From positions 1-17,429 of the forward strand of contig JAACEH010000001.1 in the NCBI GenBank assembly GCA_011682595.1: a DNA stretch of 17,429 nt, written 5' to 3'. The notes beneath the pieces were generated by a model that did no database searches, was not told the DNA's origin, and saw nothing but the letters and a program-made list of their open reading frames with translations. This DNA is from Anaerolineaceae bacterium (GTDB lineage: Bacteria > Planctomycetota > Phycisphaerae > FEN-1346 > JAACEH01). Positions 4,978-17,429 of this stretch are shown here, in pieces. A program made the position numbers and the translations under genes. Positions within the stretch are counted from its first letter, which is position 1, and every line of letters begins with the position of its first letter.

Positions 4978-4983
4978 GAAATC

Positions 4984-5012: not shown

Positions 5013-5056
5013 GCAGTGATGGCGCCGCCGTTGGGGCGCGGTTCGTGGGGATTGGC

Positions 5057-6079
5057 ATGGTTGACGGTGACGACTATACAGGTCGGGTCGGCATCACCGC
5101 TACGGTTCCGGTGGAGGTGCTTTTTGCCGCGGGCCGGCGGCCGCTGGACCTGAACAACGTGTTCGTCGCCGGCCGGGCGTCCGAGGATATTCACCGCGCC
5201 GAGAGTGCGGGGTTCCCGGTTAATTGTTGCGCCTGGATCAAGGGGCTCTACGGCGCCGCGGGCCGCCTGGGGATTCGCGAAGTGGTCGGCGTGGCCCAGG
5301 GCGACTGCTCGAACACGCACGCCCTGCTGGAGATCTGGGCCAGCGAGGGGCTGCGGGTCTATGATTTCGAGTATCCGCACCCGGCCTCGCAGACGCATCT
5401 GGACGGCGCCCTGCAGGATTTCTGCGCCGCCTGGGGAACCAGCCGCAACAAGGCCGAGCGGACCAAGCAGCGGCTGGACCGGGTCCGGGCCGTGCTGCGG
5501 GAAATCGACGAGCTTTCCTGGCGCAGCGGCCAGGTCAGCGGCCGGGAGAATCACCAGTGGCTGATCGGGGCCAGTGATTTCGGCGGCGACCCGGAGGCTT
5601 ACGAGAATCGGGCCAGGGAGTTTCTGGCCCAGGCCCTGGACCGGCCGCCGTACCGGCCGGCTTTGCGAGTCGGCTACCTGGGCATTCCGCCGATCTGCGA
5701 CGGGCTGCACGGTTTTCTGGAGTCGCTCGGGGCCGGCGTGGTCTTCAACGAGTTTCAGCGGCAGTTCGCCATGTTGCCGCCGACGGGTACGCTGACCGAG
5801 CAGTACCTGGGCTACACATATCCTTACGGAGTGGCCGGCCGGATTGCCGATATAAGAGAGCAGGTCGCTCGGCGGCGGATCGACGGGCTGATTCACTACG
5901 TTCAGAGTTTCTGTTTCCGTCATATCCAGGACCGGCTGATTCGCCAGGCCGTCGAGCTGCCGGTCTTGACGCTGGAGTACGACCGCCCCGGGGCCTTGGA
6001 CGGCCGCAGCCGCACGCGTCTGGAGGCCTTTGTCGAACTTCTGGAAATCAGACGACGGGAATCCGCGAAAACCGAATGA
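5057..6079 (+). CDS. 2-hydroxyacyl-CoA dehydratase / benzoyl-CoA reductase (HgdB/BcrC)-like protein
   Basis: A protein of the HgdB/BcrC iron-sulfur family, whose known members are subunits of ATP-dependent dehydratases or reductases carrying a [4Fe-4S] cluster. ATG 5057 has GGGG 6 nt upstream; GTG at 5045 is the in-frame alternative. In the 340-residue product the cluster-ligand signatures are GFPVNCCAWIKGLYG (Cys 57/58), VGVAQGDCSN (Cys 84) and YVQSFCFRH (Cys 286), followed by LTLEYDRPG and TRLEAFVELL. Characterised enzymes need a second homologous subunit and an ASKHA-type activator ATPase; neither is in this window. Its product may therefore work with partners elsewhere or be an orphan single-subunit form of unknown reaction. 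Its stop overlaps the next start (ATGA), so they are translationally coupled. Confidence 0.82.
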   Translation: MVDGDDYTGRVGITATVPVEVLFAAGRRPLDLNNVFVAGRASEDIHRAESAGFPVNCCAWIKGLYGAAGRLGIREVVGVAQGDCSNTHALLEIWASEGLRVYDFEYPHPASQTHLDGALQDFCAAWGTSRNKAERTKQRLDRVRAVLREIDELSWRSGQVSGRENHQWLIGASDFGGDPEAYENRAREFLAQALDRPPYRPALRVGYLGIPPICDGLHGFLESLGAGVVFNEFQRQFAMLPPTGTLTEQYLGYTYPYGVAGRIADIREQVARRRIDGLIHYVQSFCFRHIQDRLIRQAVELPVLTLEYDRPGALDGRSRTRLEAFVELLEIRRRESAKTE

Positions 6080-7149
6080 CCAAAAGCACCCGCAAATACC
6101 TCTGGCTTGCCGTCCGCGTCCTGGTCAGCGGCCTGTGCATCGCCTTGGTGGTCTACAAGGGCGACATCGTCACCAGGAAGTCCCTGCGGATACTGGGCAA
6201 CGTCTTCAGCGAGGGATATTGGCCGTGGCTCATCGCGGCGGTGGTCGCTTACGCCATGTCGCCGCTGTTCGGGGCCTGGCGCTGGCGGCGGCTGCTGAAG
6301 ATCCAGAGCATCAACCTGACCTTCCGCGAATCATGGCGGCTGACCTACATCGGCTTCTTCTTCAACACCTTCATGCCCGGCGTGACCGGCGGCGACATCA
6401 TCAAGGCCTACTACGCGTCGAAGTACACCGAGCACAAGGCCGAGGCCGTGGCCACGGTTTTCCTGGACCGCGTGCTGGGCATGCTGGGCCTGGGGCTGCT
6501 CTGCATCTGCGTCCTGGCCACCCACTGGCGCGACCCGGCCATTGCCGACGGCCGCTGGACGATCCCCGGCCTCCTGGATCTTTCCATACGCGACATCATC
6601 CTGGCCTTCCTGGGTTTTGCAGCCGCCGGAGCGATGGTCGTCTACAGCCGTCGCGTGCGGAGGTGGCTCTTTGTCGAGAGGCTGCTGGCCAGCTTGCCGT
6701 TCCAGAAACTCATCAAGCGGCTGGACGCCGCGGTGTTCATCTACCGCCACCACCGCCGCACCGTGCTCTTTGCGATCTTCCAGTCCTGGTGCGCCCACAC
6801 AGTGAGCATCGCCAGCGTCTACTTCTGTGCCCGGGCCCTGGGCCTGGACCCTAAGCCGGTTTATTTCTTCATCTACATGCCCGTGGTGTGGATCATTTCG
6901 GCTTTCATCCCCAGTGTCGGCGGCCTGGGCCCCATGGAATGGCTGAGCCAGAAGTTCTTTACGGCGGCGGTGCTGGTCGTGGCCTCGCCGCAGAGGGCAT
7001 TATCTCTTGCGGTGTGGATTATCCTGCTGTTCCGAGTGGCCATGTTCATCGCCGTGCTGCCCGGGGCCGTGCTTCATATTCTCCATCCCGAAGTTTCGGT
7101 AAAGGAAGCTCGCAGCGAAATGGAAAGTCTGGAACCCATCAATGGCTGA
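6076..7149 (+). CDS. YbhN/LPG-synthase-TM-type (UPF0104) integral membrane protein
   Basis: A polytopic inner-membrane protein of the flippase-like lysylphosphatidylglycerol synthase transmembrane family. The 357-residue product has about seven or eight hydrophobic segments, e.g. LWLAVRVLVSGLCIALVVY near the N-terminus, a WPWLIAAVVAYAMSPLFGAW stretch, MLGLGLLCICVLA, IILAFLGFAAAGAMVVY, and C-terminal helices through VWIILLFRVAMFIAVLPGAVL. The family signatures FFFNTFMPGVTGGDIIKAYY and PSVGGLGPMEWL are clear. Known relatives translocate or modify lipids or polyprenyl-linked molecules; the cargo here is unknown. There is no soluble aminoacyl-transferase domain, so it is not a full MprF. ATG 6076 overlaps the upstream stop, and the end overlaps the PHP gene by 8 nt. 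Confidence 0.85.
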   Translation: MTKSTRKYLWLAVRVLVSGLCIALVVYKGDIVTRKSLRILGNVFSEGYWPWLIAAVVAYAMSPLFGAWRWRRLLKIQSINLTFRESWRLTYIGFFFNTFMPGVTGGDIIKAYYASKYTEHKAEAVATVFLDRVLGMLGLGLLCICVLATHWRDPAIADGRWTIPGLLDLSIRDIILAFLGFAAAGAMVVYSRRVRRWLFVERLLASLPFQKLIKRLDAAVFIYRHHRRTVLFAIFQSWCAHTVSIASVYFCARALGLDPKPVYFFIYMPVVWIISAFIPSVGGLGPMEWLSQKFFTAAVLVVASPQRALSLAVWIILLFRVAMFIAVLPGAVLHILHPEVSVKEARSEMESLEPING

Positions 7150-8170
7150 ACGAGAGTACACGGGAGCGGTGCACATTCACAGCGATTTCAGCGACGGTTC
7201 GTCGCCGGTCGGCGACATCATTGCAGCCGCGGTCGAGGTCGGCCTGGACTTCATCGTCATGTCCGACCACAACAGCGACGAAACCGCGCGGCGGGGGCTC
7301 ACCGGGTGGCACGACAACCTGCTCTGCCTCTCGGCGCCGGAGATCGGTTGGCGGGGCAATCCACACTTCCTGGCCTTCGGCCTGCCCGATTTGGCGGCCA
7401 CCGGCGGACTGAACTCCAGCGACGCCATCGAGGAGGCCTGCCGACAGGGAGCGAGCAACATCATCGCCCATCCACACGTGGCCGAGATACGCATGTGGCC
7501 CAAGAAACCTGTCAATTGGACGCACTGGGACACCGACGCATTCTGCGGGATCGAGATCTGGTCCTACATGCACGACGTTTGCCACAAAGCCGTCCCCTGG
7601 CGGCTGCCGATACTGTTTTTCCGGCATCGCCTTCAGGTCAGCGGTCCTCGCCCCGAGACGCTGCAACTCTGGGACCGCATGTGTCGGACCAGGCGCGTGG
7701 CGGCGATGGGCTCGCTGGACAACCACGCCACCAGAAAGTTCCTCGTAGGCCAGATCTTCCCGCACAAGGACCTGTTCCGTACGTTGCGAACGCACGTGAT
7801 CTGCGAGCCGCTGCCGACCGACGGCGCGGCGGCCGTCCGGACCGTGACCCGAGCCTTGACCGAAGGCAGCAGTTTCATCGCCCTGGACGCCTGGGGCGAC
7901 TCGTCCGGTTTCGACATGCATGTCGAAGGCCCGCCCGGGACCGTAACCCTGGGCCGGGAAACTACCTGGTCGCCGGGAATGAAGCTGCACGTGCGTTCGC
8001 CGCTGCCGGCACAACTGACTGTTATTCGCGACGGAACGACCCTGGAGAGCCGCTCCAAGTGCAGCGGCTTTGAACTTCCCATTGAGATTCCAGGGGTGTA
8101 CCGAGTTGAGGGGCGCCTGGGCAAGAAGCCGTGGGTCTTTACTAACCCGATTTATCTGCGAGATGCCTGA
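7142..8170 (+). CDS. Cytoplasmic PHP-domain phosphoesterase-like protein
   Basis: A PHP-superfamily metal-dependent hydrolase, 342 residues, with no signal peptide. Metal-site motifs in order are VHIHSDFSDGSS (HxHxD, near the N-terminus), IVMSDHNSDE, NIIAHPHVAE and AMGSLDNHA. The last 100 residues are a beta-rich module ending VYRVEGRLG then WVFTNPIYLRD. This mirrors the ending of the secreted PHP protein at 2841-4061 (YRLEVGI then SNPVYV), so the two share an architecture as well as a fold. PHP proteins of this size are often nucleoside or sugar phosphatases or diesterases, but the substrate cannot be read from sequence. The start overlaps the upstream membrane-protein gene by 8 nt, coupling their synthesis. 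Confidence 0.82.
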   Translation: MAEREYTGAVHIHSDFSDGSSPVGDIIAAAVEVGLDFIVMSDHNSDETARRGLTGWHDNLLCLSAPEIGWRGNPHFLAFGLPDLAATGGLNSSDAIEEACRQGASNIIAHPHVAEIRMWPKKPVNWTHWDTDAFCGIEIWSYMHDVCHKAVPWRLPILFFRHRLQVSGPRPETLQLWDRMCRTRRVAAMGSLDNHATRKFLVGQIFPHKDLFRTLRTHVICEPLPTDGAAAVRTVTRALTEGSSFIALDAWGDSSGFDMHVEGPPGTVTLGRETTWSPGMKLHVRSPLPAQLTVIRDGTTLESRSKCSGFELPIEIPGVYRVEGRLGKKPWVFTNPIYLRDA

Positions 8171-8221
8171 TTCATGCCCTGCATTTGTGCGCCGCCGTGT
8201 TGACCTGGGAGGCGAAGGATT

Positions 8222-8989
8222 GTGACAGAGCCACGCCTGATCGACGGTTCCACCTGCAGCGAGCTTCTCAGGGAGGCCGCCCAGAGGAGCGTGACCATCG
8301 ACGTGATTCGGCTCTTGAAATCGGGGCCGGACGCGTGCCGTTCGCGGTTCGTCGAACTGCCCGGTGCCGACCTGGCCGTCGAGGTGCCGTCCCGACTTGG
8401 CCGGCCTGTTCCCGTCCGACCCGGCGAGCGGCTCGAGATACATTTCCGCATCAAGGAATATCGCTACTGTTTCCGGACCACGGTCAGGTCCCGCTCGAAA
8501 GTCGCCCTGAGCGAACTGCTCGAAGTGCCGATTCTGCTCGTCGTGCCCCCGGTGAGCATCGAGCAACGCCGGCGACGACAGTTCCTGCGGGTCAAGGTGA
8601 CCGCCGCCGACCGGCTGATGGCCCACCTCTGGCTGGTCGATGACACCCGGCCCCGGGACGAGGTGTTGCGACTGCCGTCGACGGAGGTGCTCGACATCAG
8701 CGGCGGCGGAATGCGGTTGCTCCTGGAAGGGCCGATGAGGGGCCGCATTAAGGAAGGCCAACAGGTCCACCTCCACATGGACCTGGGCACCGGCTGGGAG
8801 CCGTTGAAACTTGTCGCCCACGTCGAGCACGTTGACCGGACGGGGCGCCAAGTTGTGCGATTCGGTCTGCATTTCGACGGTCTCGACGAGACACTCGAAG
8901 GTCGCGCCGCTCAGAACCGCCTGTTGCGGTTTATCGCAGAACGTGAGCGGAAAGAGGCGCAGCGGGTGAAAGCACTGAAGGGGCAGTGA
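8222..8989 (+). CDS. PilZ-domain protein (YcgR-like), predicted c-di-GMP receptor
   Basis: A predicted cyclic-di-GMP effector. The N-terminal half (about 1-110) is a beta-rich domain resembling the flagellar-brake YcgR N-domain. The C-terminal half is a PilZ domain with the ligand motifs RRQFLR (RxxxR, Arg 119 and 123) and DISGGG (DxSxxG, 158-163). The last segment is a charged helix (RFIAERERKEAQRVKALKG). The start is GTG at 8222, with GGGAGG 9 nt upstream. It sits 51 nt after the PHP gene, and its stop overlaps the alkyltransferase start. c-di-GMP binding is established for proteins with these motifs. Its output (motility, polysaccharide or transport) is unknown; co-transcription with a lipid-flippase-like gene hints at the envelope. 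Confidence 0.88.
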   Translation: MTEPRLIDGSTCSELLREAAQRSVTIDVIRLLKSGPDACRSRFVELPGADLAVEVPSRLGRPVPVRPGERLEIHFRIKEYRYCFRTTVRSRSKVALSELLEVPILLVVPPVSIEQRRRRQFLRVKVTAADRLMAHLWLVDDTRPRDEVLRLPSTEVLDISGGGMRLLLEGPMRGRIKEGQQVHLHMDLGTGWEPLKLVAHVEHVDRTGRQVVRFGLHFDGLDETLEGRAAQNRLLRFIAERERKEAQRVKALKGQ

Positions 8990-9540
8990 ACGTGGCGGGA
9001 GGCAACTGCCGGTTTCGTCTGATTGAGACTCCCCTGGGGACCATGGCCATTGTTGTCCGCGGCGACCTCCTGGCTGGCCTGTCGCTTCCCGAGCGCAGCA
9101 CCCGGCGACTGATGAGCCGTGTATCCGCCGGATGGCCCGAGGCCCGGGCCGACCGCGGGCTCCTGCCGTCGCTTACTCGTGAGATTGCCGCCTACTTCGC
9201 CGGCCGGGCAGCCGACTTTGACATTGCCCTGGACCTGTCCGGGAGAACCGATTTCCAGCAACGCATCCTCCGGCAGTGCCGCAAGATTCCCGCCGGCCAG
9301 GTCGCCACCTATGGCCAACTGGCCCACAGGGCGGGGCGACCCCGCGCCGCAAGAGCGGTCGGCCGGGCAATGGCCTTGAACCCAGTGCCGCTGATTATCC
9401 CCTGCCATCGCGTCGTGGCGGCCGACGGCGCCCTCGGCGGCTTCAGCGCCGAAGGCGGCCTGGCGCTGAAGGCCCGCCTTCTGGAGCACGAAAAACGATT
9501 CTGGGGCAGTGACGCCCCGCAAGCGAACCATCAAACTTGA
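8986..9540 (+). CDS. ogt: Methylated-DNA--[protein]-cysteine S-methyltransferase
   Basis: A suicide DNA-repair protein that moves alkyl groups from O6-alkylguanine to its own cysteine. The 184-residue product has the canonical active site IIPCHRVV (Cys 140), preceded by AVGRAMALNPVPL (the helix-turn-helix arginine-finger region) and KIPAGQVATYGQLA, and followed by GGFSAEGGLALKARLLEHE. The N-terminal ribonuclease-H-like domain is present, as in Ogt. GTG 8986 overlaps the PilZ stop (GTGA); GTG 8992, with AAGGGG 8 nt upstream, is an equally good start. It is the last gene of the run from 5057, and housekeeping repair at the end of an envelope/signalling operon is probably incidental. The gene symbol refers to the family; the ogt versus ada C-domain distinction is not made here. 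Confidence 0.95.
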   Translation: MNVAGGNCRFRLIETPLGTMAIVVRGDLLAGLSLPERSTRRLMSRVSAGWPEARADRGLLPSLTREIAAYFAGRAADFDIALDLSGRTDFQQRILRQCRKIPAGQVATYGQLAHRAGRPRAARAVGRAMALNPVPLIIPCHRVVAADGALGGFSAEGGLALKARLLEHEKRFWGSDAPQANHQT

Positions 9541-9565
9541 CTTTCGCGGCGGCCTCCTGTAAAGT
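9537..9565 (+). promoter_or_regulatory. Sigma70-like promoter for tRNA-Arg and tadA
   Basis: TTGACT (9537-9542), overlapping the ogt stop, and TAAAGT (9560-9565) are 17 nt apart, matching five and four of six positions. It would start a transcript near 9572 that runs into the tRNA at 9662 and then tadA. Confidence 0.5.
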
Positions 9566-9600
9566 ACGGTTTCGCACACGGGGCCGTCCGCCCTGGCTGT

Positions 9601-9619
9601 CAGCCCGGTGAGCGGGCTG
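9601..9619 (+). terminator. Hairpin between ogt and tRNA-Arg
   Basis: CAGCCCG and CGGGCTG form a perfect 7-bp stem with a GTGAG loop. Only a broken T-run follows (GGTTGTTG), so it could be a weak terminator for the upstream operon or simply a leader structure of the tRNA transcript. Confidence 0.28.
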
Positions 9620-9661
9620 GCCGGTTGTTGAAAGCTTGAAGACGAAATAGTTACTTGCGGT

Positions 9662-9738
<77 letters not shown>

Positions 9739-9764
9739 TTTCTATTGGGATTGACAGGCCGCCA

Positions 9765-10235
9765 GTGCTTGAAGCCACCGACGAAGCGTTCATGGACATG
9801 GCCCTTCGCGAGGCCGCAAAAGCCCGCCAAGCCGACGAGGTGCCCATCGGGTGCTGCATCGTCCGCAACGGCAAGACCATTGCCCGGGCTCACAACCAAC
9901 GCCAGATGCTGCACGATCCGACGGCCCACGCCGAGATGATTGCCATTACCCAGGCCGCCGAGGCCATGGGCGACTGGCGACTCACCGAGACGGCGCTCTA
10001 TGTGACGCTCGAGCCGTGTGCCATGTGTGCCGGGGCGATTGTCCTGGCCCGCATCCCGCGAGTGGTCTTCGGTGTCCGCGACGCCAAGGCCGGGGCGGTC
10101 CGCAGTCTGTACCAGTTGCTCGAGGACCGGCGGCTGAACCATACAGCCGAGGTGGTTGAAGGCGTGCTGCCGCATCGCTGCCGGGCCATCCTGCAGGAGT
10201 TCTTCCAGCACCGCCGTAGTCTGGGTGAAAAGTAG
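9765..10235 (+). CDS. tadA: tRNA-specific adenosine deaminase
   Basis: TadA converts A34 to inosine in tRNA-Arg(ACG), allowing one tRNA to read three Arg codons. The 156-residue product shows the zinc site: AHAEM (zinc ligand His and catalytic Glu) and PCAMCAGAI (two zinc Cys). The deaminase core EVPIGCCIVRNGKTIARAHNQ and the RVVFGVRDAKAGAV stretch typical of TadA are also present. The start is GTG 9765: the residues between it and the first ATG (9792) include the conserved DEAFM leader, so the later ATG would truncate the protein. The ribosome site (CAGG) is weak, perhaps because translation follows processing of the tRNA upstream. The gene sits beside its own substrate tRNA. Confidence 0.96.
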   Translation: MLEATDEAFMDMALREAAKARQADEVPIGCCIVRNGKTIARAHNQRQMLHDPTAHAEMIAITQAAEAMGDWRLTETALYVTLEPCAMCAGAIVLARIPRVVFGVRDAKAGAVRSLYQLLEDRRLNHTAEVVEGVLPHRCRAILQEFFQHRRSLGEK

Positions 10236-10284
10236 CTCTGCCGGTGCCGTGTGAGCAGGAAACGGACGAGAGTTGCCGGCCTGT

Positions 10285-11130
10285 TCACGGCATGGCGAGA
10301 AAAGTTTTCATCGCGCTGCAGATGGCCTTCAGCAACAAGACATCCGCATCTTCGGGGCCTTTGTGGAACTGTTCGCCGCCGTGGTCGGCGGCATTTGTGA
10401 CGTGGGCGACAAGGCCGACCGGGAAGTTGCAGCGCCGGCCGAAGGCCAGCAGTGAAGCCGCCTGCATCTCCACCGCCAGCGCGCCTTGGGCGGCCCAATA
10501 CTCGATTTGGGAGCGGGTCTCGCGGTACGGCGCGTCGGTGGTCCAGACCAGGCCTTGCCGCACGGGCAACCCGACGGTCGCCAGCGTCCGCGTCAGGGCC
10601 TCTGCCAAGGCCGCGTTGCTGCGAACGGTCCGGCTGGGTGGCAGGTAGTGAAGCGAGGTGCCCTCGTCGCGGACCGCTTCGTCCGCGACCACAATGGCAG
10701 GCAGGGGCAACTCGCAGCCGACACGTCCCGCCGAAGCCAGGCCGATCACCGCCTTGGCCCCACAAACGGCCATCTGTTCGGCCACCAGCACCGTGTAGGG
10801 CCCGCCGATGGTTCGGGCCACGATCCCGCAGCGCGGCTCGTCCTTTGGCCAAAGCCACATCTCGGTGTGGAAGCATGGCCAATGCTCGCACCGCCGCACC
10901 TGGCCACGTGCGATCAGTTTGTCCGTCAAGTCGCCGTCGAACTCCAACACGCACAAGGCCGGTGCGGGCTGATCGCCGACTTCCCGCTGTTGCCGTACCG
11001 CCGCGACCAAATCATCCGGCCGAAAGGCCGTCGCTTCGTCGAGGGCGTGAGCAAGCAGCGGCAGACCTGCTGAAGGGCCGCCCTGGGTCGCCTGCTCAGT
11101 TACGGAATCTTCAAATGTTCGTTCGGTCAT
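10285..11130 (-). CDS. Nucleoside phosphorylase family protein (PNP/UDP type 1)
   Basis: A 281-residue member of the purine/uridine phosphorylase and MTA/SAH-nucleosidase superfamily, cytosolic, cleaving the glycosidic bond of a nucleoside. The evidence is VIGLASAGRVG (phosphate/base loop region), VADEAVRDEGTSLHYLPPS (a family landmark of uridine-phosphorylase-like enzymes), and GLVWTTDAPYRET leading to ALAVEMQAASLLAF. In the well-studied enzymes the last motif is EME and its second Glu binds the ribose hydroxyls. Here it is Glu-Met-Gln (221-223), so substrate binding may differ. The start is ATG 11130 with a modest AAGG site. It lies 39 nt downstream of the ArsR/methyltransferase fusion on the same strand, probably one operon. 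An SAH or methylthioadenosine substrate would make sense beside a methyltransferase, but that is inference. Confidence 0.82.
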   Translation of the reverse strand: MTERTFEDSVTEQATQGGPSAGLPLLAHALDEATAFRPDDLVAAVRQQREVGDQPAPALCVLEFDGDLTDKLIARGQVRRCEHWPCFHTEMWLWPKDEPRCGIVARTIGGPYTVLVAEQMAVCGAKAVIGLASAGRVGCELPLPAIVVADEAVRDEGTSLHYLPPSRTVRSNAALAEALTRTLATVGLPVRQGLVWTTDAPYRETRSQIEYWAAQGALAVEMQAASLLAFGRRCNFPVGLVAHVTNAADHGGEQFHKGPEDADVLLLKAICSAMKTFLAMP

Positions 11131-11169
11131 TGGTTGCCTTATTTCTCAAGAATCCAGTTTCCCTGGTTT

Positions 11170-12228
11170 TCATCGCCGCTTGCCCTCCGCGGGTTCCGGT
11201 GTCCCGACCCGACGAAAGAGGCAGTACACGAAGGCCTGCGGTTTGCCCCACGGCGTCTGATGTGTCTCCCGGAACGATTCGATCGGCGTAAACGCGCCGC
11301 CGAAAGCCTCGGCCATCGCATCGGGGGCCCAGCGGGCCACGTCCAAATCGCTGCAAGAGGGCGGTCCGTCGGGGGCGAAGGTGGCGATAATCGCGTAGCC
11401 TCCAGGTTTCAACCCTCGGTGCAGCGCGGCCAGATAGGCCTGCTGGTCCTTGAGTTCGGTCAAGAAATGAAAGACCGCCCGGTCGTGCCAAAGATCGTAC
11501 TGTTGCGGCGGCATAAAACCGGTGACGTCCGCCTCCAGCCAGGTCACCCGATTGGCCCGATCTCCCAATCGTTGGCGGCACCGCTGCAGGCCCGCAGCGG
11601 AAACGTCCAGCACACTGAGGCATGTGAAACCGCGGTCCAGGAGTTCGCCCACCAAGGCCGACGGTCCGCCGCCGCCGATGTCGATGATGGCCGCATTTCT
11701 CGGCAATGGGACCTGGTCCAGGATGGCCAGCGAAGGCGTTGCCTCGACCTGATACCAGCTCAAATCGGCGTCGGCCTTTTGCGTGTAAACTTGATTCCAA
11801 TGTTCGGCGCGATCCGTTTCCTGGTCTTCCGCCGTTGCGATGGCCGGATGGCCGGCCTCCGTTAGCTCGTCTGACGGTCCCGCTGCGGATCGCTGGTTCC
11901 GCCTGCGGGCGGCCCGTCGAACCCATGCAGCCGAGCAGGGGACAATCGGGTGTTCACTGCCCAGAAACCCCGTGAGCGCTGCGACCAAACTAGGACGAGC
12001 AATGTAGTAGCAGCGGAGGTTGCCGTCTTCGTGGAAGTCCACGATCCTGGCCTGCCGCAGCACCGACAGATGTTGCGAGAGGTTGGCCTGGCGCACGTCC
12101 AGCAGTTCCTGAATGTCGCTGACGCACTTGGGGCCCTTGGCCAGCTCGTCCAGCAGGGCCAGCCGGAGTGGATGCCCAAGCAGCCGAAGCAGGTCGGCGG
12201 CCTCTCGCCTTTGCGAAGCGTCGTTCAT
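11170..12228 (-). CDS. ArsR-type HTH regulator fused to a SAM-dependent methyltransferase
   Basis: A 352-residue two-domain protein. Residues about 8-95 are an ArsR/SmtB winged helix (LLGHPLRLALLDELAKGPKC, then QANLSQHLSVLRQARIV as the DNA-reading helix and DGNLRCYYIARP as the wing). Residues about 96-138 are an Arg/Ala-rich linker. Residues 141-340 are a class I methyltransferase: HWNQVYTQK, the SAM loop IIDIGGGGPSALV (181-193), the acidic strand end LSVLDVS, WLEADVT, YDLWHDRAVFHFL and GGYAIIATFAPDGP. The glycine-rich loop is intact, so SAM or SAH can be bound. Proteobacterial SahR regulators pair an ArsR HTH with a methyltransferase-like domain to sense SAH; this protein could be analogous, or an enzyme that represses itself. 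A perfect palindrome 28 nt upstream of the start suggests autoregulation. Confidence 0.85.
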   Translation of the reverse strand: MNDASQRREAADLLRLLGHPLRLALLDELAKGPKCVSDIQELLDVRQANLSQHLSVLRQARIVDFHEDGNLRCYYIARPSLVAALTGFLGSEHPIVPCSAAWVRRAARRRNQRSAAGPSDELTEAGHPAIATAEDQETDRAEHWNQVYTQKADADLSWYQVEATPSLAILDQVPLPRNAAIIDIGGGGPSALVGELLDRGFTCLSVLDVSAAGLQRCRQRLGDRANRVTWLEADVTGFMPPQQYDLWHDRAVFHFLTELKDQQAYLAALHRGLKPGGYAIIATFAPDGPPSCSDLDVARWAPDAMAEAFGGAFTPIESFRETHQTPWGKPQAFVYCLFRRVGTPEPAEGKRR

Positions 12229-12255
12229 GACTTCATCTCGTCAGTGCTTTTGCTC

Positions 12256-12273
12256 TATTCGAATATTCGAATA
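12256..12273 (-). promoter_or_regulatory. Perfect 18-bp palindromic operator of the ArsR-type fusion
   Basis: TATTCGAATATTCGAATA is identical on both strands and consists of two overlapping TATTCGAATA units. It is AT-rich in a GC-rich region, lies 27 nt before the regulator's ATG and covers the -10 region of the promoter at 12270-12299. This is the usual arrangement for ArsR-family self-repression. Confidence 0.75.
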
Positions 12274-12299
12274 TTGCGCGATACGAGGTGAGGTGTCAA
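12270..12299 (-). promoter_or_regulatory. Sigma70-like promoter of the ArsR-type fusion operon
   Basis: The minus strand carries a perfect TTGACA (12299-12294), then 18 nt to AATATT (12275-12270) or 17 nt to CAATAT (12276-12271). The -10 overlaps the palindromic operator, so bound repressor would block polymerase. Confidence 0.55.
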
Positions 12300-12433
12300 T
12301 GGCAAAGTTTGGTGGTGGGGCAGATTCCACCGAGTCGGCAACCCCGCCCGAACTTGTCGCGGACCAGCGTCTGCGCGAAATTGTTGCCATTGTGTTGCGT
12401 AAACTGGCTGGAAGCCGCATGGGCATAAGTTAA
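12299..12433 (+). CDS. Small hypothetical protein (44 aa), possible recombinase-associated remnant
   Basis: An ATG preceded by the purine-rich GAGGTGAGG opens a 44-residue frame ending at TAA 12431-12433. The C-terminal half, ADQRLREIVAIVLRKLAGSR, is an amphipathic helix. It loosely resembles short helical proteins I recall next to serine recombinases in planctomycetes, and recombinase debris does follow at 12826-13125. The similarity is from memory and weak. No domain is recognisable, so it may be a remnant or not a gene at all. Its start overlaps the divergent promoter of the ArsR-type gene. Confidence 0.3.
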   Translation: MAKFGGGADSTESATPPELVADQRLREIVAIVLRKLAGSRMGIS

Positions 12434-12480
12434 GAGCGCGTTGCCGACACCGAATGACGGAAGGACCGGGAGAACAATCA

Positions 12481-12823
12481 TGCCAAAGTCGCTCCGTCTC
12501 GCCCTGGCCATTCTGGTCGTCCTGGGCGGTGCAGCGCTGATGGTTTACCTGGCGGACACGGCGCTGGAGACCCGAGGCGAAAACTGGCGGCGCGGGCCAA
12601 GGGCGGCATCATCGCCATAGCGGCCATGCTCGGGATCGGCTCGCTCGGATACTTCGGTTCGCAGACAACCTGTTACGTCATGTCTTCACTGTTCGATTCT
12701 CGCGACCCGAAGATCGTCGTGCGACAGAAAGAACTGCTCGAGAAGCAGCACGACGCCGGAATTATCAGCGACCAGACCTACGAGCGGGTGCTGGCCAGCT
12801 TCGAGCCGCAACGGTCGCAATAG
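12481..12823 (+). pseudogene. Small two-helix membrane protein with SHOCT-like tail, broken by a frameshift
   Basis: The frame opens at ATG 12481 after a GGGAG ribosome site and encodes MPKSLRLALAILVVLGGAAL, a first membrane helix, up to LETRGE. Translation then leaves frame at an A-run (12580-12583) and stops at 12617-12619. The other frame continues sensibly from the same point: KLAARAKGGIIAIAAMLGIGSLGYFG (second helix), then a cytosolic stretch and ELLEKQHDAGIISDQTYERVLASF, a short C-terminal motif like SHOCT oligomerisation tails. One more A in the run would restore a protein of about 114 residues. The break is either a true mutation in this degraded patch or an assembly/sequencing error. 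Function unknown. Confidence 0.6.
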
Positions 12824-12825
12824 CA

Positions 12826-13125
12826 GCCGAGCGGGGCCAACCGGCCGACCTGAAATCGCAGCTCGATGAGGTCCAGCGCCAGCTCGACGAGGCCGACGGG
12901 TTCGACCCGGCCTTCGGCCAGGCGGCGCTGGCGGTGTTCGATTTCAGCCAGAATCTGGCGAATATCTGGCGCGGTTCAAACTCGGCACAGAAACGCCAGT
13001 TACTTGAGGTGGTCAGTTTGAACCGTACTGTGAGCGACGTAAGTCTTGTGTTGACAAAAAGAAAGTCGTTCGATTTTCTCGTCGAACGGCCCTTTTTGAA
13101 GAAAAGTCGGGGTGACTGGATTTGA
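12826..13125 (+). pseudogene. C-terminal remnant of a large serine recombinase
   Basis: A reading frame without a plausible start of its own, continuous from before 12826 to TGA 13123-13125. Its translation reads AERGQPADLKSQLDEVQRQLDEADGFDP (a coiled coil), FDFSQNLANIW, SAQKRQLLEVVSLNRTVSDVSLVL and KRKSFDFLVERP. This is the pattern of the extreme C-terminus of serine recombinases with a zinc-ribbon and coiled coil. The catalytic N-domain, recombinase domain and zinc ribbon are missing, so it is a remnant of a lost integrative element. The last codons (13107-13125) lie inside the 3' end of tRNA-Pro on the other strand, pointing to insertion at that tRNA. Family assignment is by remembered similarity. 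Confidence 0.6.
13056..13090 (-). terminator. Intrinsic terminator of tRNA-Pro, within recombinase remnant
   Basis: CGTTCGA (13067-13073) and TCGAACG (13082-13088), extended by a G-U and a G-C pair, give a 9-bp stem with an 8-nt loop. Read on the minus strand it is followed by TTTCTTTTT, a strong U-tract, 17 nt past the tRNA 3' end. On the plus strand CCCTTTTT follows, so it may work both ways. Confidence 0.65.
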
Positions 13126-13180
13126 ACCAGCGACCTCCGCGTCCCGAACGCGGCGCTCTACCAAACTGAGCCACACCCCG
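13107..13180 (-). tRNA. tRNA-Pro (anticodon CGG)
   Basis: A complete 74-nt cloverleaf on the minus strand. The acceptor CGGGGTG pairs with CACCCCG, including the C1-G72 pair and A73 discriminator characteristic of bacterial tRNA-Pro. The D stem is GCTC/GAGC, the anticodon stem CCGCG/CGCGG, and the loop TTCGGGA gives anticodon CGG (13146-13144), reading CCG. The T arm is GCTGG-TTCAAAT-CCAGT. CCA is not encoded, unlike the tRNA-Arg at 9662. The recombinase remnant ends inside its 3' half. Confidence 0.96.
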
Positions 13181-13192
13181 AAGTGCAGGGTC

Positions 13193-13220
13193 ATTATAAT
13201 CATCCGGCCCGTCTTGTCAA
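13193..13220 (-). promoter_or_regulatory. Fully consensus sigma70 promoter of tRNA-Pro
   Basis: On the minus strand TTGACA (13220-13215) and TATAAT (13198-13193), both six of six, are separated by 16 nt. The start would fall about 6 nt before the mature tRNA, a compact, strong stable-RNA promoter. Confidence 0.85.
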
Positions 13221-13522
13221 TCGATGCTTTGTCGAAAGCCCCCACAGAGGACCTGGACAGTCGCCCTCCCCCGACCGTGCTTCCAGGCAACCATTTTCCG
13301 AGCCCGGGGCGGCAGCTTGCCTAACCGGCACAACCCCAACCCGGGCCGCAGCGCCACAACAGGTCGGCCACGGAAGACGCAGTTCAGCCGCTCTGTAACT
13401 CCTTATCCCACAATGCAATAGGACGCAGTTGGCCTGCGCGTTACCTCTCACGCGCCGACCGGCGACTTCCTTGTCCGCATAACCCGCACTTTCGGCACAA
13501 ACGGCTGCGAATTACGCGGCAT
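13221..13522. other. Non-coding stretch between tRNA-Pro promoter and sigma54 region
   Basis: About 300 nt with no convincing gene on either strand. Short open frames here lack ribosome sites and family features. No repeat, hairpin with T-tract or recognisable RNA was found. Confidence 0.5.
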
Positions 13523-13540
13523 TTGTAACTAATTGTACAA
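13523..13540 (+). promoter_or_regulatory. Candidate upstream activator site for the sigma54 promoter
   Basis: TTGTA (13523-13527) and TACAA (13536-13540) form perfect inverted arms 8 nt apart, centred about 85 nt before the predicted start. Sigma54 enhancer-binding proteins usually bind dyads at this kind of distance. Which activator would bind is unknown. Confidence 0.3.
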
Positions 13541-13589
13541 CATCGACTTACAGGCTGCAGACTAAATAAGGGGAAGAGGCTCAGCCTTT

Positions 13590-13605
13590 TGGCACGATGT
13601 TTGCG
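13590..13605 (+). promoter_or_regulatory. Sigma54 (-24/-12) promoter of the PEP-CTERM gene
   Basis: TGGCACGATGTTTGCG matches the RpoN consensus TGGCACG-N4-TTGC at every defined position, with GG and GC at the required 10-bp separation. Transcription would begin near 13616, giving a leader of about 148 nt that includes a small GGCGGA/TCCGCC hairpin (13720-13734) just before the ribosome site. It points directly at the PEP-CTERM gene. Confidence 0.8.
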
Positions 13606-13763
13606 ACTGTGTCTGTATGAGCTTTGGTCTACGCCTGGCGACCGACTGTTGGCGGCAATGGGCGCATTGGCAGTGATCCTTGAGGTGAGTGGGACGCGGT
13701 GAGAGATCGCCGAAGGGGTGGCGGAATGTCCGCCGCAAACGATTGGTTTGGAGGAGATGAAAG

Positions 13764-14423
13764 ATGAAGACGCATCATGTGATGATGATAGCTGCACTCG
13801 GAGTTCTGGCAACTGCAGGGCCGGCCTTTGCCGATGCCGTCTATGACGGGACGATCTACCGGCTTGGTGGACCGGCCCAGGTGGGTGATCGGTACGGTTC
13901 GGACGTCACGGTGTCCACGGTCGATCAACTGTCCTTCACGGTTAATAGCGCCGGAACCGTCGCCATCGACATGATGTCATGGGAGGCGGAGGGCAATGTG
14001 CGGATCGATCTGAACGGCGATGGCGAGTACGCGTGCCTGGACACCAAGATATATCTGTTCCATGACGACGGGGATCTTTCGGCCGACGACTTTATTGCCT
14101 TCGACGACGACCGGAATCCGCCGGGAGTTTACGACGGGTCGGTGCATCTGTACGACTCGTTTCTCGAACTCTCACTGGCCGCCGGCAACTACATTGTTGC
14201 CGTTGGCAGCTTCCAGATGGATATGGACAGCGCCATTGCAGGCCTCAACGACGCAAGCTTCGGGCCAGTGACAATTGCGTCCGACGGGAGCCGCTTCGTT
14301 AACGACCACGGCGACTACCGGCTGACGCTGGTCGGTGACGTGACGATTGTTCCGGAGCCGGCCACCATGGCCCTGCTGGGTGTGGGGGCCATCGGGCTGG
14401 TCCTGCGGCGCAGGAAGAAATGA
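13764..14423 (+). CDS. Secreted PEP-CTERM sorting-domain protein
   Basis: A 219-residue exported protein expected to be processed by an exosortase and anchored to or released from the envelope. ATG 13764 follows GGAGGAG at good spacing. The signal peptide is MKTHHVMMIAALGVLATAG through AFA, with cleavage near residue 23. The mature part is acidic and beta-rich (DLNGDGEYACLDTKIYLFHDDGDLSADDF, then LELSLAAGNYIVAVGSF), a style common to PEP-CTERM surface proteins with a bacterial pre-peptidase-like beta-sandwich. The C-terminus holds the sorting signal VPEPATMALLGVGAIGLVL followed by RRRKK (196-219): PEP motif, membrane helix, basic tail. No exosortase is in the window. It stands alone behind a sigma54 promoter, so expression is probably conditional. 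Confidence 0.9.
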   Translation: MKTHHVMMIAALGVLATAGPAFADAVYDGTIYRLGGPAQVGDRYGSDVTVSTVDQLSFTVNSAGTVAIDMMSWEAEGNVRIDLNGDGEYACLDTKIYLFHDDGDLSADDFIAFDDDRNPPGVYDGSVHLYDSFLELSLAAGNYIVAVGSFQMDMDSAIAGLNDASFGPVTIASDGSRFVNDHGDYRLTLVGDVTIVPEPATMALLGVGAIGLVLRRRKK

Positions 14424-14452
14424 TTTCCGCATGAGATCAGCAGTTGGCGGTT

Positions 14453-14483
14453 AAAACGAGCGGTCTCTGCGGGCCGCCCGCTC
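14453..14483 (-). terminator. Possible terminator after the dGTPase operon
   Basis: GAGCGG (14458-14463) pairs with CCGCTC (14478-14483). Read on the minus strand the hairpin is followed by GTTTTAA, about 30 nt past the dGTPase stop. The 6-bp stem with a 14-nt loop makes this tentative. Confidence 0.33.
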
Positions 14484-14515
14484 CGCTGGGCGAATCGCCA
14501 GTTGACGATTTTCTC

Positions 14516-15667
14516 TTACAGCCGCTCGAAGGGCTCGAAAAGTTTGCGATACTCGTCCTGGGCGAAGCGGTCGGTCATGCCGGCCACGTAATCGCAGACG
14601 GCCCGCTTGATGCTGAACTCCTTGGCGTAGGCCTGGTAAGTCGGTGGTAACTGGCGAACGTCCCCTTCATAGGTGGCCAGCATTCGCTTCAGAAACCGCT
14701 GGGCCTTGGTGGTTATCCGCATGACGCGGTGATTGTGGTAAACCCGTTCCATCAGAAAGGTCTCGACCTGGCTGACGTTCGCCTCGAGGTCTGCGCTGAA
14801 ATGCATCAGTCGCCGTGGCGCGCTGCGAACGTCATCGCAGGAGGCGGCGCCGCAGGCCTCGATTTCCGACTCGGCCACCCCCAAGACGTCGCGGACCATC
14901 ATGTCAATCAGCAGCTTGGCCACTCGACGAACCTTCTGGTCAAGTGTCAGGTGAGCCACCGCCCGGGCGAAGTCCTCCTCGGCCCGGAGGAACAGTTCCA
15001 GCTCGACAAGCTCCTCTGCCCGCACCAGCCCCATGGCCAGGGCGTCGTCCAGATCGTGGCTGTCGTAGGCAATGCGGTCGGCCATCTCAACCGCCTGGCC
15101 TTCCAGCGGCGGGTGCAGCAGCGGGAACTCCTCCAAGGCCTGGGGCTGATCGTGAACCGTGCAGTGCTTGGCGATGCTCTCGCGGACCTCGTAGGTCAGG
15201 TTCAGTCCGCGGAAGGCGGGGTAGGGGTGCTCCAGCAGGTCGACCACCCGCAGGCCGTGGCGGTTGTGCTCGAAGCCGCCGCAGTCGGCCATGAAATCGT
15301 TCAGGGCGGCCTCGCCACCGTGGCCGAACGGTGTGTGACCCAGGTCGTGTCCCAGGGCCACGGCTTCGGTCAGGTCCTCGTTCAGGTTCAGGGTCCGGGC
15401 CAGCGTGCGGGCAATCTGGGCCACCTCCAGGGTGTGCGTCAGCCGCGTCCGGTAGTGGTCGCCCTCGTGGGTGACGAAAACCTGTGTCTTGTATTCCAGG
15501 CGGCGGAAGGCCGTCGAGTGAATCACCCGGTCGCGGTCCCTCTGGTAGGCCGTGCGGAAGGCGTGTTCGGGTTCATCGTGCCGCCGGCCCTTCGTCCGGC
15601 CGCTGGCCGCGGCGTAAGGGGCCAGAATGTCCTGCTCGCGGGCTTCGATGTCGCTTCGGGTCAGCAT
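14516..15667 (-). CDS. dgt: Deoxyguanosinetriphosphate triphosphohydrolase (dGTPase, HD domain)
   Basis: A cytosolic HD-superfamily enzyme that removes triphosphate from dGTP (or dNTPs more broadly), tuning nucleotide pools. ATG 15667 is chosen because AGGAAGG lies 9 nt upstream and MLTRSDIEAREQDILAPYAA is the expected N-terminus. The 383-residue product is typical of the short dGTPase-like class (E. coli Dgt is about 505). Metal-site and family motifs are DRDRVIHSTAFRRLEYKTQVF, RTRLTHTLEVAQIAR (first His), ALGHDLGHTPFGHGGE (the HD pair, 107-108), FEHNRHGLRVV, and EMADRIAYDSHDLDDAL (last Asp). The start follows the HIT gene stop by 5 nt, so it is the third gene of the operon beginning at 16682. 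Confidence 0.93.
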   Translation of the reverse strand: MLTRSDIEAREQDILAPYAAASGRTKGRRHDEPEHAFRTAYQRDRDRVIHSTAFRRLEYKTQVFVTHEGDHYRTRLTHTLEVAQIARTLARTLNLNEDLTEAVALGHDLGHTPFGHGGEAALNDFMADCGGFEHNRHGLRVVDLLEHPYPAFRGLNLTYEVRESIAKHCTVHDQPQALEEFPLLHPPLEGQAVEMADRIAYDSHDLDDALAMGLVRAEELVELELFLRAEEDFARAVAHLTLDQKVRRVAKLLIDMMVRDVLGVAESEIEACGAASCDDVRSAPRRLMHFSADLEANVSQVETFLMERVYHNHRVMRITTKAQRFLKRMLATYEGDVRQLPPTYQAYAKEFSIKRAVCDYVAGMTDRFAQDEYRKLFEPFERL

Positions 15668-15672
15668 GGCGG

Positions 15673-16158
15673 TCAGCCTTCCTGCCGGGCCTTTACCAGG
15701 AGCCGGCAAAGGTCCTCCAGGGCCTGAGGAATAATCTTGACCTCGGCCAGAACGGGCATGAAGTTCGTGTCGCCGTTCCACCGCGGCACGATGTGTATGT
15801 GCAGGTGTCCCGGCAGCCCGGCCCCGGCCACACGGCCAAAGTTCATCCCCACGTTGAAGCCGTCCGGACGTATCGCCTTCTTTAACAGCTTCATGGTGCC
15901 GGCGGTCGTCCGCATCAGTTCGCCCATCTCCCGGTCCGTCAGTTCGTCGAGATCGGCCTTATGATCGTTCGGGCAGACCAGCGTATGGCCGTTATTATAT
16001 GGAAAACGATTGAGCACTACGAAGCTGTGCTCGTTGCGGGCCACGACCAGATCCCGGGCGTCGTCGTCGCTGCCCAAGACGTCGCAGAGGAAGCAGCCGC
16101 CCTTGTCGTTGATACCGTTGATGTAGGTCATGCGCCAAGGCGCCCAGAGGCGTTCCAT
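15673..16158 (-). CDS. HIT-family hydrolase (Ap4A phosphorylase/hydrolase-like)
   Basis: A histidine-triad nucleotide-binding protein that probably cleaves dinucleoside polyphosphates or AMP-lysine-type adducts. ATG 16158 follows a perfect AGGAGGT with 6-nt spacing; longer upstream frames are non-coding. The 161-residue product starts MERLWAPWRMTYI, has a zinc pair CFLC (22-25), then FVVLNRFPYNNGHTLVCPNDH, PDGFNVGMNFGRVAGAGLPGHLH and the triad HLHIHIVPRWNGDTNFMP (His 118, 120, 122). The WAPWR opening and GDTNFMPV ending are typical of the Ap4A-phosphorylase-like branch. It lies between the metallophosphoesterase (14 nt) and dGTPase (5 nt) genes, together a nucleotide-phosphate housekeeping operon. 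Confidence 0.93.
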   Translation of the reverse strand: MERLWAPWRMTYINGINDKGGCFLCDVLGSDDDARDLVVARNEHSFVVLNRFPYNNGHTLVCPNDHKADLDELTDREMGELMRTTAGTMKLLKKAIRPDGFNVGMNFGRVAGAGLPGHLHIHIVPRWNGDTNFMPVLAEVKIIPQALEDLCRLLVKARQEG

Positions 16159-16172
16159 GTCCCGACCTCCTG

Positions 16173-16682
16173 TCAAAGTTTCTCGATCCAGACCTGCGGC
16201 TCGCCCCGGCCCAGTTCCATCATGGCGAAGGTGTGGCCGTATCCGCGGCTGCGCGTCGGGCTGCCGGGGTTGACGAGCCAGACCCGCCGTCCGTCGGACA
16301 GCTCGACCTGGTCGATGTCGGGGCAATGCGTATGCCCGTGGACAACGGCCAGAAGTTGCTCGTAATCGCCCAGGAATCGCCCGATGGCAGCTTTCGGGCC
16401 CTCGCGCACCAAGGGCAGCGAGTGGATCACCAGAATGCTCCCCGCAGGGGTTTCGACCAGGCGGAACTCCGGCAGCGTCTCGTCCAGCGGGCTGCGGTCG
16501 GTGTTGCCGGAGATGGCCACCACTTCCGGCCCGATGGCCTTGATCATCTCCAGCCCGCTCAGGTCGCCGATGTCTCCGGCGTGCAGAATCAGGTCGCACC
16601 TTCTGAACGTCTCGACGAGCCTCTCCGGCAGCACGGGCCGCCCGTCGCGAACGTGAGTGTCGCTGACCAGGCCGATTAACAA
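16173..16682 (-). CDS. Metallophosphoesterase, YfcE/MJ0936 type
   Basis: A small calcineurin-like phosphodiesterase, 169 residues, cytosolic. The di-metal motifs are complete: GLVSDTHVRD (Asp 8, His 10), LILHAGDIGDLSG, AISGNTD, LVIHSLP and VVHGHTHCPD, ending with VNPGSPTRSRG. The start is TTG 16682, preceded on the minus strand by GGAAAGGGA with 8-nt spacing. The next methionines lie inside the conserved core, so the TTG is well supported. YfcE-type proteins cleave phosphodiesters such as model bis-pNPP in vitro and their natural substrates are uncertain. First gene of the operon with the HIT and dGTPase genes. Confidence 0.92.
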   Translation of the reverse strand: MLIGLVSDTHVRDGRPVLPERLVETFRRCDLILHAGDIGDLSGLEMIKAIGPEVVAISGNTDRSPLDETLPEFRLVETPAGSILVIHSLPLVREGPKAAIGRFLGDYEQLLAVVHGHTHCPDIDQVELSDGRRVWLVNPGSPTRSRGYGHTFAMMELGRGEPQVWIEKL

Positions 16683-16726
16683 ACGGATAGTCCCTTTCCG
16701 CTAACCGTGGCACCCTGCGCAGCCGT

Positions 16727-16751
16727 GTAGGGCGGCTGAAACGCAGCCGCC
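16727..16751 (+). repeat. REP-like palindrome, copy 1
   Basis: GTAG (16727-16730) is followed directly by GGCGGCTG, loop AAACG and CAGCCGCC, a perfect 8-bp stem. A GTAG tetranucleotide at the foot of a GC-rich hairpin is the classical REP layout. It lies in the 5' intergenic region of the phosphoesterase operon. Read on the other strand its foot is GCCGCCCTAC. Confidence 0.6.
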
Positions 16752-16770
16752 GATTGTGAGAATAGACCGC

Positions 16771-16791
16771 GTGGCTGCAAGCAGCCACCCT
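16771..16791 (-). repeat. REP-like palindrome, copy 2, interrupted by the IS110 element
   Basis: GTGGCTGC (16771-16778) and GCAGCCAC (16781-16788) are perfect arms, inverted relative to copy 1 (minus-strand foot AGGGTGGCTG against copy 1 AGGGCGGCTG, read without the tetranucleotide). The plus strand runs GCAGCCACCCT, as copy 1 does (GCAGCCGCCCT read through its loop side differs at one base near the foot). Copy 1 continues AC where copy 2 continues TG. The similarity ends exactly there, which I take as the insertion point. Confidence 0.5.
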
Positions 16792-16835
16792 TGTATGATC
16801 ACTGCGACTGTTGCAAAATAGGTTTAACGTGTAAA

Positions 16836-16985
16836 GAGGCGCTGCTGTCCCCCGGCCGGGGGACAGCAGCGGGGCGACCGGGAGATCGTGCCACCCTGGG
16901 CCTGCAAGGTAAGGCCGCTGTTGTAGCTGGATCCCCGGTCGTCTTTACATCGGGCCGCGCCCGAACAGTCGCAAGAGCCGCAGCC
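16836..16985 (+). ncRNA. Candidate IS110 bridge RNA
   Basis: Known IS110-subgroup elements transcribe a bridge RNA from the left end, with a 5' hairpin, then a target-binding loop and a donor-binding loop. Here a perfect 32-nt palindrome (16840-16871) forms the 5' hairpin. CGACCGGG (16875-16882) pairs with CCCGGTCG (16934-16941) to enclose an internal loop capped by GGCCT/AGGCC (16899-16903/16912-16916). The loop's left strand has GCCACCCT (16890-16897), equal to the host flank; the right strand has TTGTAG (16921-16926). A further hairpin TCGGGC/GCCCGA (16950-16964) followed by CAAG (16972-16975) could form the donor loop, since CAAG pairs with the CTTG at the left junction. Ends are estimates. 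Confidence 0.5.
16840..16871. repeat. Perfect 32-nt palindrome in the IS110 leader
   Basis: The arm CGCTGCTGTCCCCC is exactly repeated in inverted form around a GGCC centre, with no mismatch over 32 nt. It has no T-tract on either strand, so it is not a terminator. Its place 50 nt inside the element suggests the 5' hairpin of the bridge RNA. Confidence 0.85.
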
Positions 16986-17024
16986 TTGCCGCCACGAGCT
17001 CGCATTTGCAAGGAAGGGACCCTG

Positions 17025-17429
17025 ATGATGAGCACCTCCACATTCGTCGTCGGCATCGATGTCAGCAAGAAAACTCTCGACGCCCATCTGTTGCCCGAAG
17101 GCCGCAGACCCCACTTTACCAACAATCCCGCCGGCCGGCAAGCCCTGTTGCAGGCCGTGTCCTCAAAGAAGCTGCAATGCGTGGCTATGGAGGCCACCGG
17201 CGGTTATGAGAGAGCCCTGGCCGTGGGACTCGACGCCGCCGGTCTGCCCGTGGTGGTGTTGAACCCACGCTGGGTGCGCGACTTCGCCCGGGCCACCGGC
17301 CGTCTGGCCAAAACCGACCAGATCGACGCCCGGCACATTGCCCAGTACGCCCAGAAGGTCCAGCCCGAGCCGCGTGGTGTGCCCGATGCCACAGGCCGTC
17401 GCCTGCAGGACCTGGTCGCTCGCCGCCGA
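17025..17429 (+). CDS. IS110-family transposase (DEDD recombinase), 3'-truncated by window edge
   Basis: The N-terminal RuvC-like DEDD domain of an IS110 recombinase, which with a bridge RNA joins donor and target DNA. ATG 17025 (a second ATG follows at 17028) is preceded by AAGGAAGGG. The 135 visible codons have no stop. Catalytic motifs are VVGIDVSKKTLDAHL (Asp 12), CVAMEATGGYERAL (Glu 56) and LAKTDQIDARHIAQYAQ (Asp 98, Asp 101), plus the family stretch VVLNPRWVRDFARATG. All four DEDD acids are present, so the domain seen is intact. The C-terminal Tnp domain with the catalytic serine (Transposase_20) lies outside the window, so activity cannot be judged. The 5' leader contains the candidate bridge RNA. 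Confidence 0.93.
   Translation, partial: MMSTSTFVVGIDVSKKTLDAHLLPEGRRPHFTNNPAGRQALLQAVSSKKLQCVAMEATGGYERALAVGLDAAGLPVVVLNPRWVRDFARATGRLAKTDQIDARHIAQYAQKVQPEPRGVPDATGRRLQDLVARRR

Follow-up and report, generated by a model that had tools for sequence, protein, structure and literature searches.

The insertion sequence (IS) of the IS110 group that starts at position 16,792 of the window (the whole 17,429-nucleotide stretch of DNA analysed here), directly after a CT at 16790-16791, very probably (with a probability of roughly 0.92) has a bridge-RNA leader, recombines at a CT core, and takes as its target the junction between the stem and the GTAG head of a REP sequence of its host. In the proposed mechanism, the left-end leader of the element would encode a bridge RNA with one loop that reads the target, at the stem/head junction of the GTAG-type REP, and a second loop that would pair with the joined ends of the element itself; the recombinase would then exchange strands at the common CT core. 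The case is built on the sequence, on guide/flank agreement among relatives and on a dispersed repeat, while RNA expression, pairing and catalysis are extrapolated from IS621. The features of the site and of the element, which is truncated by the window end, are as follows.

16727-16751, minus strand: intact REP-like copy, with a GTAG head at 16727-16730 plus palindrome, reading ...CAGCCGCCCTAC on the minus strand and inverted relative to the interrupted copy (a REP pair)
16771-16791, plus strand: interrupted REP-like copy GTGGCTGCAAGCAGCCACCCT, with the CT core at 16790-16791, equal to the commonest REP of a related genome (G010) up to the core
16792-16816, plus strand: left end (right donor side) TGTATGATC...; core plus left end reads CTTGTA[TAC] in 96 of the 122 non-duplicate elements, among them the window element
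16840-16871, plus strand: 5' stem-loop of the predicted bridge RNA, from the fold, with a 14-bp stem
16874-16888, plus strand: 5' strand of the target-binding loop stem, from fold and alignment, with last bases GATCG
16889-16897, plus strand: left target guide (LTG) TGCCACCCT, identical at 8 of 9 positions to flank AGCCACCCT
16899-16916, plus strand: small hairpin within the target-binding loop (GGCCT...AGGCC), from the fold and RNAalifold
16919-16926, plus strand: right target guide (RTG) TGTTGTAG, with complement CTACAACA as the predicted right flank; the same rule also predicts the right flanks of relatives
16929-16942, plus strand: 3' strand of the target-binding loop stem, GGATCCCCGGTCGT, from fold and alignment
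16966-16972, plus strand: left donor guide (LDG) CAGTCGC, which predicts the right end ...ACAGTCGCT
17003-17012, plus strand: putative right donor guide CAT..CAAG, complementary to CTTG.ATG at the core plus left end
17025-17429, plus strand: recombinase ORF, first 135 aa, DEDD_Tnp_IS110, truncated by the window end

The recombinase is typical of the IS110 family. PF01548 (IS110 DEDD domain) is matched in the window ORF (E 2.4e-21), which is identical across the part within the window to a full-length protein of 315 aa (P0002) for which precomputed domains include both PF01548 and Transposase_20 (PF02371). Catalytic residues of IS621 are D11, E60, D102, D105 and S241 (PMC11208158); residues D12, E56, D98, D101 and S237 are present in P0002 and probably correspond to them, as matched by order and context rather than by alignment. 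The combination of DEDD domain and Transposase_20 with catalytic Ser that marks the family is, thus, present in the window element via P0002. Eleven proteins numbered P0003-P0012 and P0014, together with P0002 itself, form a set of relatives with 70-100% identity that are known as proteins only. From core to ORF, the window element has 235 bases, which is a long left end with a predicted RNA region upstream of the gene. The CT core is seen at the left end of the window element and at the right end in relatives, where the right end lies a median of 17 bases past the stop codon (range 10-77, 79 elements).

The flank GTGGCTGCAAGCAGCCACCCT is built of a 7-bp palindrome that encloses a 4-base loop, with CCT after it. 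The neighbouring intact copy reads GGCTGCGTTTCAGCCGCCCTAC on the minus strand, then AC; the AC that completes the GTAG complement is absent from the interrupted copy because the element follows there. GCCACCCT occurs at 16784-16791 and at 16890-16897, which are its only two plus-strand places in the window (with none on the minus strand), and TTGTAG occurs at 16921-16926. The initial annotation had placed these letters in the flank and leader loop, and had described an intact neighbouring copy; its letters and positions are exact to the base and the neighbour is present. The single mismatch between left guide and flank is the first of nine positions, and the match runs through the CT core. In the published bridge-RNA scheme, 8-9 nt of the left guide pair with the bottom strand and 4-7 nt of the right guide pair with the top strand, with the core in both (PMC11208160). 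The 5' side of the window loop likewise equals the left target including the core, in the window (8/9) and in the test of 50 clusters below, and the 3' side is complementary to the right target in relatives, with the right flank of the window element predicted only.

The interrupted sequence is one of many copies in a related genome. The pattern GGCTGN{2,10}CAGCCRCCCTACA was searched in 397 genomes of the host class of the nearest relative with flanks (L001), taken to be the Phycisphaerae, and it matched in two of them (45 places in G010, 6 in G046). A reversed control gave none in these two genomes and one place each in three others. A pattern one base shorter has 56 places in G010, of which 48 read GGCTGCAAGCAGCCACCCTAC, which is the window flank plus the missing AC; the window flank is identical to the G010 repeat up to CCCT. 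Among 49 G010 copies read with flanks, A follows CTAC (CTACA) in 39 and downstream flanks are mostly different; a GAAAAC-like stretch lies upstream in 25 of the 49, which makes the repeat unit longer in roughly half of the copies. Judged by sequence, the window site is a member of the G010-type REP family, cut exactly where the predicted guides meet. The family has the properties of GTAG-type REPs, namely a short palindrome, an unpaired GTAG head and dispersal (56 places in G010, and 67 in G001 for the L001 target), and known REPs have a GTAG head to which CTAC is complementary. This head is the mark by which RAYT/TnpA-REP is thought to handle REPs. PF01797 (Y1 transposase, RAYT) was found in all eight genomes that carry either the REP or an element aimed at a REP, in 11/12 hosts of other elements and in 5/14 controls; RAYT presence does not discriminate because it is also common in the other hosts, and the association was rejected as support.

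An empty site, GTGGCTGCAAGCAGCCACCCTACA, had also been expected in a related genome. Its uninterrupted form was found as the dispersed repeat just described, and none was found at the orthologous locus. Synteny with the window is 75% over 14517-16721 in G046 and 72% over 14517-16158 in G010; homology with G046 ends where the REP pair starts, with no REP there, so that this locus offers no orthologous empty site. From this synteny, the host is probably a planctomycete close to these two genomes. A REP pair similar to that of the window exists in G046, with 64/82 aligned positions identical. On the minus strand, an open frame covers 16700-16791, passes through the REP pair and terminates in CAGCHG*, and the G046 counterpart without REP gives a Cys/Gly-rich reading that is FmdB-like by eye. 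The REP pair and element seem to have been inserted into the 3' end of an FmdB-like-looking minus-strand gene. Other features of the window include a single minus-strand ORF with an ArsR-type HTH and a methyltransferase domain (11170-12228), two tRNA genes (9662-9735, plus strand, and 13107-13180, minus strand) and a small PEP-CTERM protein (13764-14423).

The window match could be fortuitous, with an 8-base agreement of flank and leader and a 6-base complement that have no function. Among 849 CT-ending 8-mers, five occur exactly in the loop (16885-16926), with one being the flank and four being CTGGGCCT. At the structural register of the guide (16889-16897), only 2 of 849 CT-ending 9-mers from window positions 1-16791 match at 8/9, namely the insertion flank and TGGCACCCT, which lies at 16708, 75 bases upstream of the flank. 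The left half by itself is, therefore, suggestive, not decisive, and the relatives carry the weight. The window flank agrees with its own guide at 6/7 positions, which is equalled by one of 49 other cluster guides (L009). A register-free scan of whole leaders is also weak and hardly separates own from other leaders (mean of 6.81 of 9 vs 6.06), with the own guide being the unique best match in 4/52 clusters. Against coincidence, the structural register holds in other clusters, with 0/100,000 permutations on both sides, as detailed next; chance is already refuted for the clade and is very improbable for the window element.

Relatives were gathered by several searches. In reference genomes, 183 were detected, and the 80 best of these, at identities up to 52%, were retained; none of these 80 is a closer relative (>52% identity) with both flanks. 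A viral scan gave three relatives, and a class-wide search was positive in 25/397 genomes at E <= 1e-60. At E <= 1e-90, hits occurred in 0/8 genomes of the order of G046 and in 1/392 of its phylum (G065, already in the set). The resulting 122 non-duplicate elements, window included, contain 96 with a rule-defined left boundary between CT and TGTA[TAC], of which 93 have a target loop (L030, L034 and L093 gave none). These 93 form 50 leader clusters, grouped by common leader 10-mers, so that some related clusters (e.g., L018 and L025) are counted separately. Candidate loops were ranked by fold energy, not by flank; the short anchor motifs of the loop rule were picked after the register-free scan had been seen, so the rule is not fully blind. 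The rule misplaces some loops (e.g., in a beta-proteobacterial group, G065 and G072), and these were retained in the counts.

Guides and flanks agree across these clusters on both sides. On the left, flanks match their own guides at 4.82 of 7 positions compared with 3.34 for guides of other clusters (0/100,000 permutations), and matches at 6 or 7 of 7 positions occur in 16/50 own pairs vs 51/2,450 other pairs. On the right, 5/5 matches occur in 21/40 testable own pairs vs 13/1,560 other pairs (0/100,000 permutations), and 30/78 elements with a readable right flank match their right guide at 7 or 8 of its 8 bases, counting the core. Covariation of leaders and flanks, which the initial annotation had proposed as a check, is thus clear, and its proposal of a bridge-RNA recombinase programmed for a planctomycete REP is supported by this 50-cluster agreement together with the dispersed REP family in the related genome.

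The leader has a structure consistent with such guides. The strand at 16830-17030 folds with z -3.06, with 0/200 shuffles equally stable, and the fold contains the 5' hairpin and the target loop. Alignment of 20 leaders chosen from the 93 reveals an invariant AG and CG ahead of the left guide, AGC past the right guide, CCG.AC ahead of the left donor guide, and CAAG. RNAalifold on these 20 chosen leaders recovers the target loop only, with 10 pairs, of which 8 have at least one change on both sides; the donor loop was not recovered across the same 20. No leader match reached an Rfam gathering score, and hits to sX15, MIR5534 and BTH_s1 in the leader were rejected as far under their gathering scores. 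Downstream of the target loop, CAGTCGC and GCATTTGCAAGG occupy the donor-guide places. In 31/37 testable clusters, the left donor guide is identical to the sequence of the right end at 6/6 positions, vs 16.8% of other pairs (0/100,000 permutations), while CAAG of the putative right donor guide is invariant in the 20 aligned leaders and offers no covariation to read.

Another explanation for the loop is that it is a duplicate of the host flank, left as a scar of self-insertion, rather than a guide. One element (L015:250-400) has a 67-bp stretch, from left end through left guide, doubled in tandem, which indicates that exchanges between flank and loop can happen. The duplication looks like a recombination of the element with the guide that it carries, a sequence that is necessarily a copy of the target; an ordinary microhomology duplication is an alternative. 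The loops, however, occupy a structurally conserved position across the 20 aligned leaders and covary with flanks, so that a scar is scarcely credible as an account of the window loop.

Relatives of the window element also occur in palindromes. The site of L001 is GGTGGGCGGAGCCCACCCT, followed on the right by CTAC, and the pattern GTGGGN{3,12}CCCACCCTAC occurs at 67 places in the L001 host (G001). In G065, which has two intact places, two of three copies are inserted in GTGGGCATGGCCCACCCT, with right flank AC. The readable right flanks of palindrome-sited relatives begin with CTAC (L001, L002, L009 (four bases only), and L122-L124). L019 (KSB1) lies within GGTGGAGTGCGACTCCACCCT; GGTGGN{5,15}CCACCCTAC occurs at 11 places in the L019 host (G406), of which four read GGTGGAGT(G/T)GGACTCCACCCTAC, and four places were counted in G405, which hosts L002 (Calditrichota). 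Elements L009 (Dehalococcoidia) and L027 (Omnitrophota) have a hairpin plus CTAC, with CTAC read from the guide only for L027. The L009 host (G004) has no intact palindrome copies by two patterns that fit the L009 palindrome, and the L027 host (G007) has none by patterns that do not fit the L027 palindrome; cross-phylum REP targeting is thin for these two elements.

The site could instead be chosen by the recombinase, or by the shape of the REP hairpin, with the leader match as a by-product. A hairpin of at least 7 pairs abuts the site in 8/10 clusters with a CTAC target vs 3/40 others (Fisher 1.2e-5), where CTAC was taken from the guide rather than the flank for three of the ten (window, L019 and L027), L123 represents a cluster otherwise headed by L122, and L037, which has a mismatch in its stem, is counted although it is not labelled REP on the tree below. 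With L122 in place of L123 the result is 7/10 vs 3/40 (p 1.2e-4), and with one more cluster dropped it is 8.7e-4. The other clusters have no hairpin preference (3/40, compared with 245/2,659, or 9.2%, for random CT sites), yet the guide/flank test across all clusters is strong. Selection by shape is, therefore, improbable as an alternative to RNA guidance.

A more serious rival accepts a true bridge RNA but regards the REP as incidental, with any GCCACCCTAC being hit. It draws on L122 in G065, which has a CTAC right flank, a site that is not palindromic and a loop that aligns like those of its relatives, and on L009, with a host that lacks intact palindrome copies. The same loop in unrelated targets had been named beforehand as an observation that would count against a REP-programmed element; the L122 site goes that way, the two G065 sister copies in palindromes do not, and REP targeting is evidently not absolute. 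In a recombinase tree of 54 rows, on the other hand, seven of eight REP-labelled rows fall in one 10-row clade (98/89; bootstrap not settled), with L009 apart, and REP targeting requires 5 changes compared with a shuffled mean of 7.6 (2/500 as low). REP targeting seems to be largely inherited, yet gained or lost more than once. The 56 ready places in the related genome also make REPs the main target in practice. An incidental REP is, thus, unlikely, although it retains some weight, and we prefer an element with guides directed at the REP.

Two further observations concern guides and repeats in this set. Among 40 clusters with a known right target, 12 carry CT[CT][CTG]G[CT]G there (L014, L073, L098, L102, L103, L108, L110, L112, L120, L125, L130 and L135), and several left flanks fit too. 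Copies of a dispersed repeat, CTYYGYGNCYYYGYGGT, number 97 in G057 (4 for the reversed control), 105 in G152 (control 0), 25 in G154, 14 in G030, 1 in G252 and none in G072, which is also a host of those elements; G001, which is not, carries 40. Separately, L140 and L141 (G108) are close copies that have a common right guide and different left guides (ATGACCCCT vs GTTGGACCT). The L141 flank GTCGGATCT agrees at 7/9 with its own guide and at 3/9 with that of its sister only if the boundary is shifted to one base ahead of the usual TGTAT; without this shift it agrees at 3/9 with both, and the L140 left flank lies outside its contig. Natural reprogramming is possible for this pair.

These patterns allow a broader, tentative reading to which we give somewhat less than even odds: guide-RNA recombinases may repeatedly evolve or keep guides to REP GTAG heads, as hyperparasites on sites dispersed by a second mobile system, in Planctomycetota, KSB1, Calditrichota and Gammaproteobacteria (IS621), and possibly in Chloroflexota and Omnitrophota. 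As part of that reading, and with the same reserve, other elements of the clade could form a second set, aimed at another dispersed repeat, CTYYGYGNCYYYGYGGT. The results suggest that RNA-guided IS survive by aiming at high-copy repeats of the host itself, and that elements in more than one phylum favour the REP GTAG head as a place to land. They also test the bridge-RNA rule independently, on natural elements in lineages far from E. coli, in which guides read from sequence alone predict both flanks, and the relatives are ready-made guide/target pairs, of which 30 match the right guide at 7 or 8 of 8 bases.

The closest known system is IS621 of E. coli, which resembles the window element in its DEDD+Ser recombinase, CT core, and leader RNA with target and donor loops (PMC11208160, PMC11208158), and in insertion at the CTAC end of a REP, with target ATCAGGCCTAC (PMC11208160). 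Its palindrome and host are not those of the window element, and the right-guide agreement of 7 or 8 of 8 bases in 30/78 elements here also differs from IS621, although some IS621 relatives are reported to have right guides longer than that of IS621 (PMC11208160). Insertion of IS110 elements into REPs was known by 2006 for ISPa11, ISPpu9, ISPpu10 and ISRm19, which have the same family and REP specificity as the window element but have Pseudomonas and Sinorhizobium hosts and other host repeats (PMC1525189); ISPa11 is an IS1111-type element (PMC11187229). In seekRNA elements (IS1111/IS110), a non-coding element region likewise yields a targeting RNA, but these are mostly of IS1111 type with RNA downstream of tnp, whereas the predicted RNA of the window element lies upstream (PMC11187229). 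Among repeats, a GTAG head defines one REP super-family (PMC3733652, PMC2817692), and tagged REPs were reported in Planctomycetes in 2013 (PMC3733652), in a paper with a main text that has no mention of IS110. The window family has the GTAG head, short palindrome, dispersal and inverted pairs of such REPs (PMC2817692, PMC3733652), and differs in reading GTAGGGTGGCTGCTTGCAGCC on the head strand and in being used by an IS110 element. The literature searched contains no paper that joins bridge RNA and planctomycetes, and the retrieved portions of work on IS110 with RAYT, or on IS110 with planctomycete and transposase, describe no such element. The bridge-RNA mechanism (2024) and IS110 insertion into REPs (by 2006) were, thus, known already; new here are the lineage, the repeat family and a REP-targeting pattern in three candidate phyla and, more weakly, in two more.
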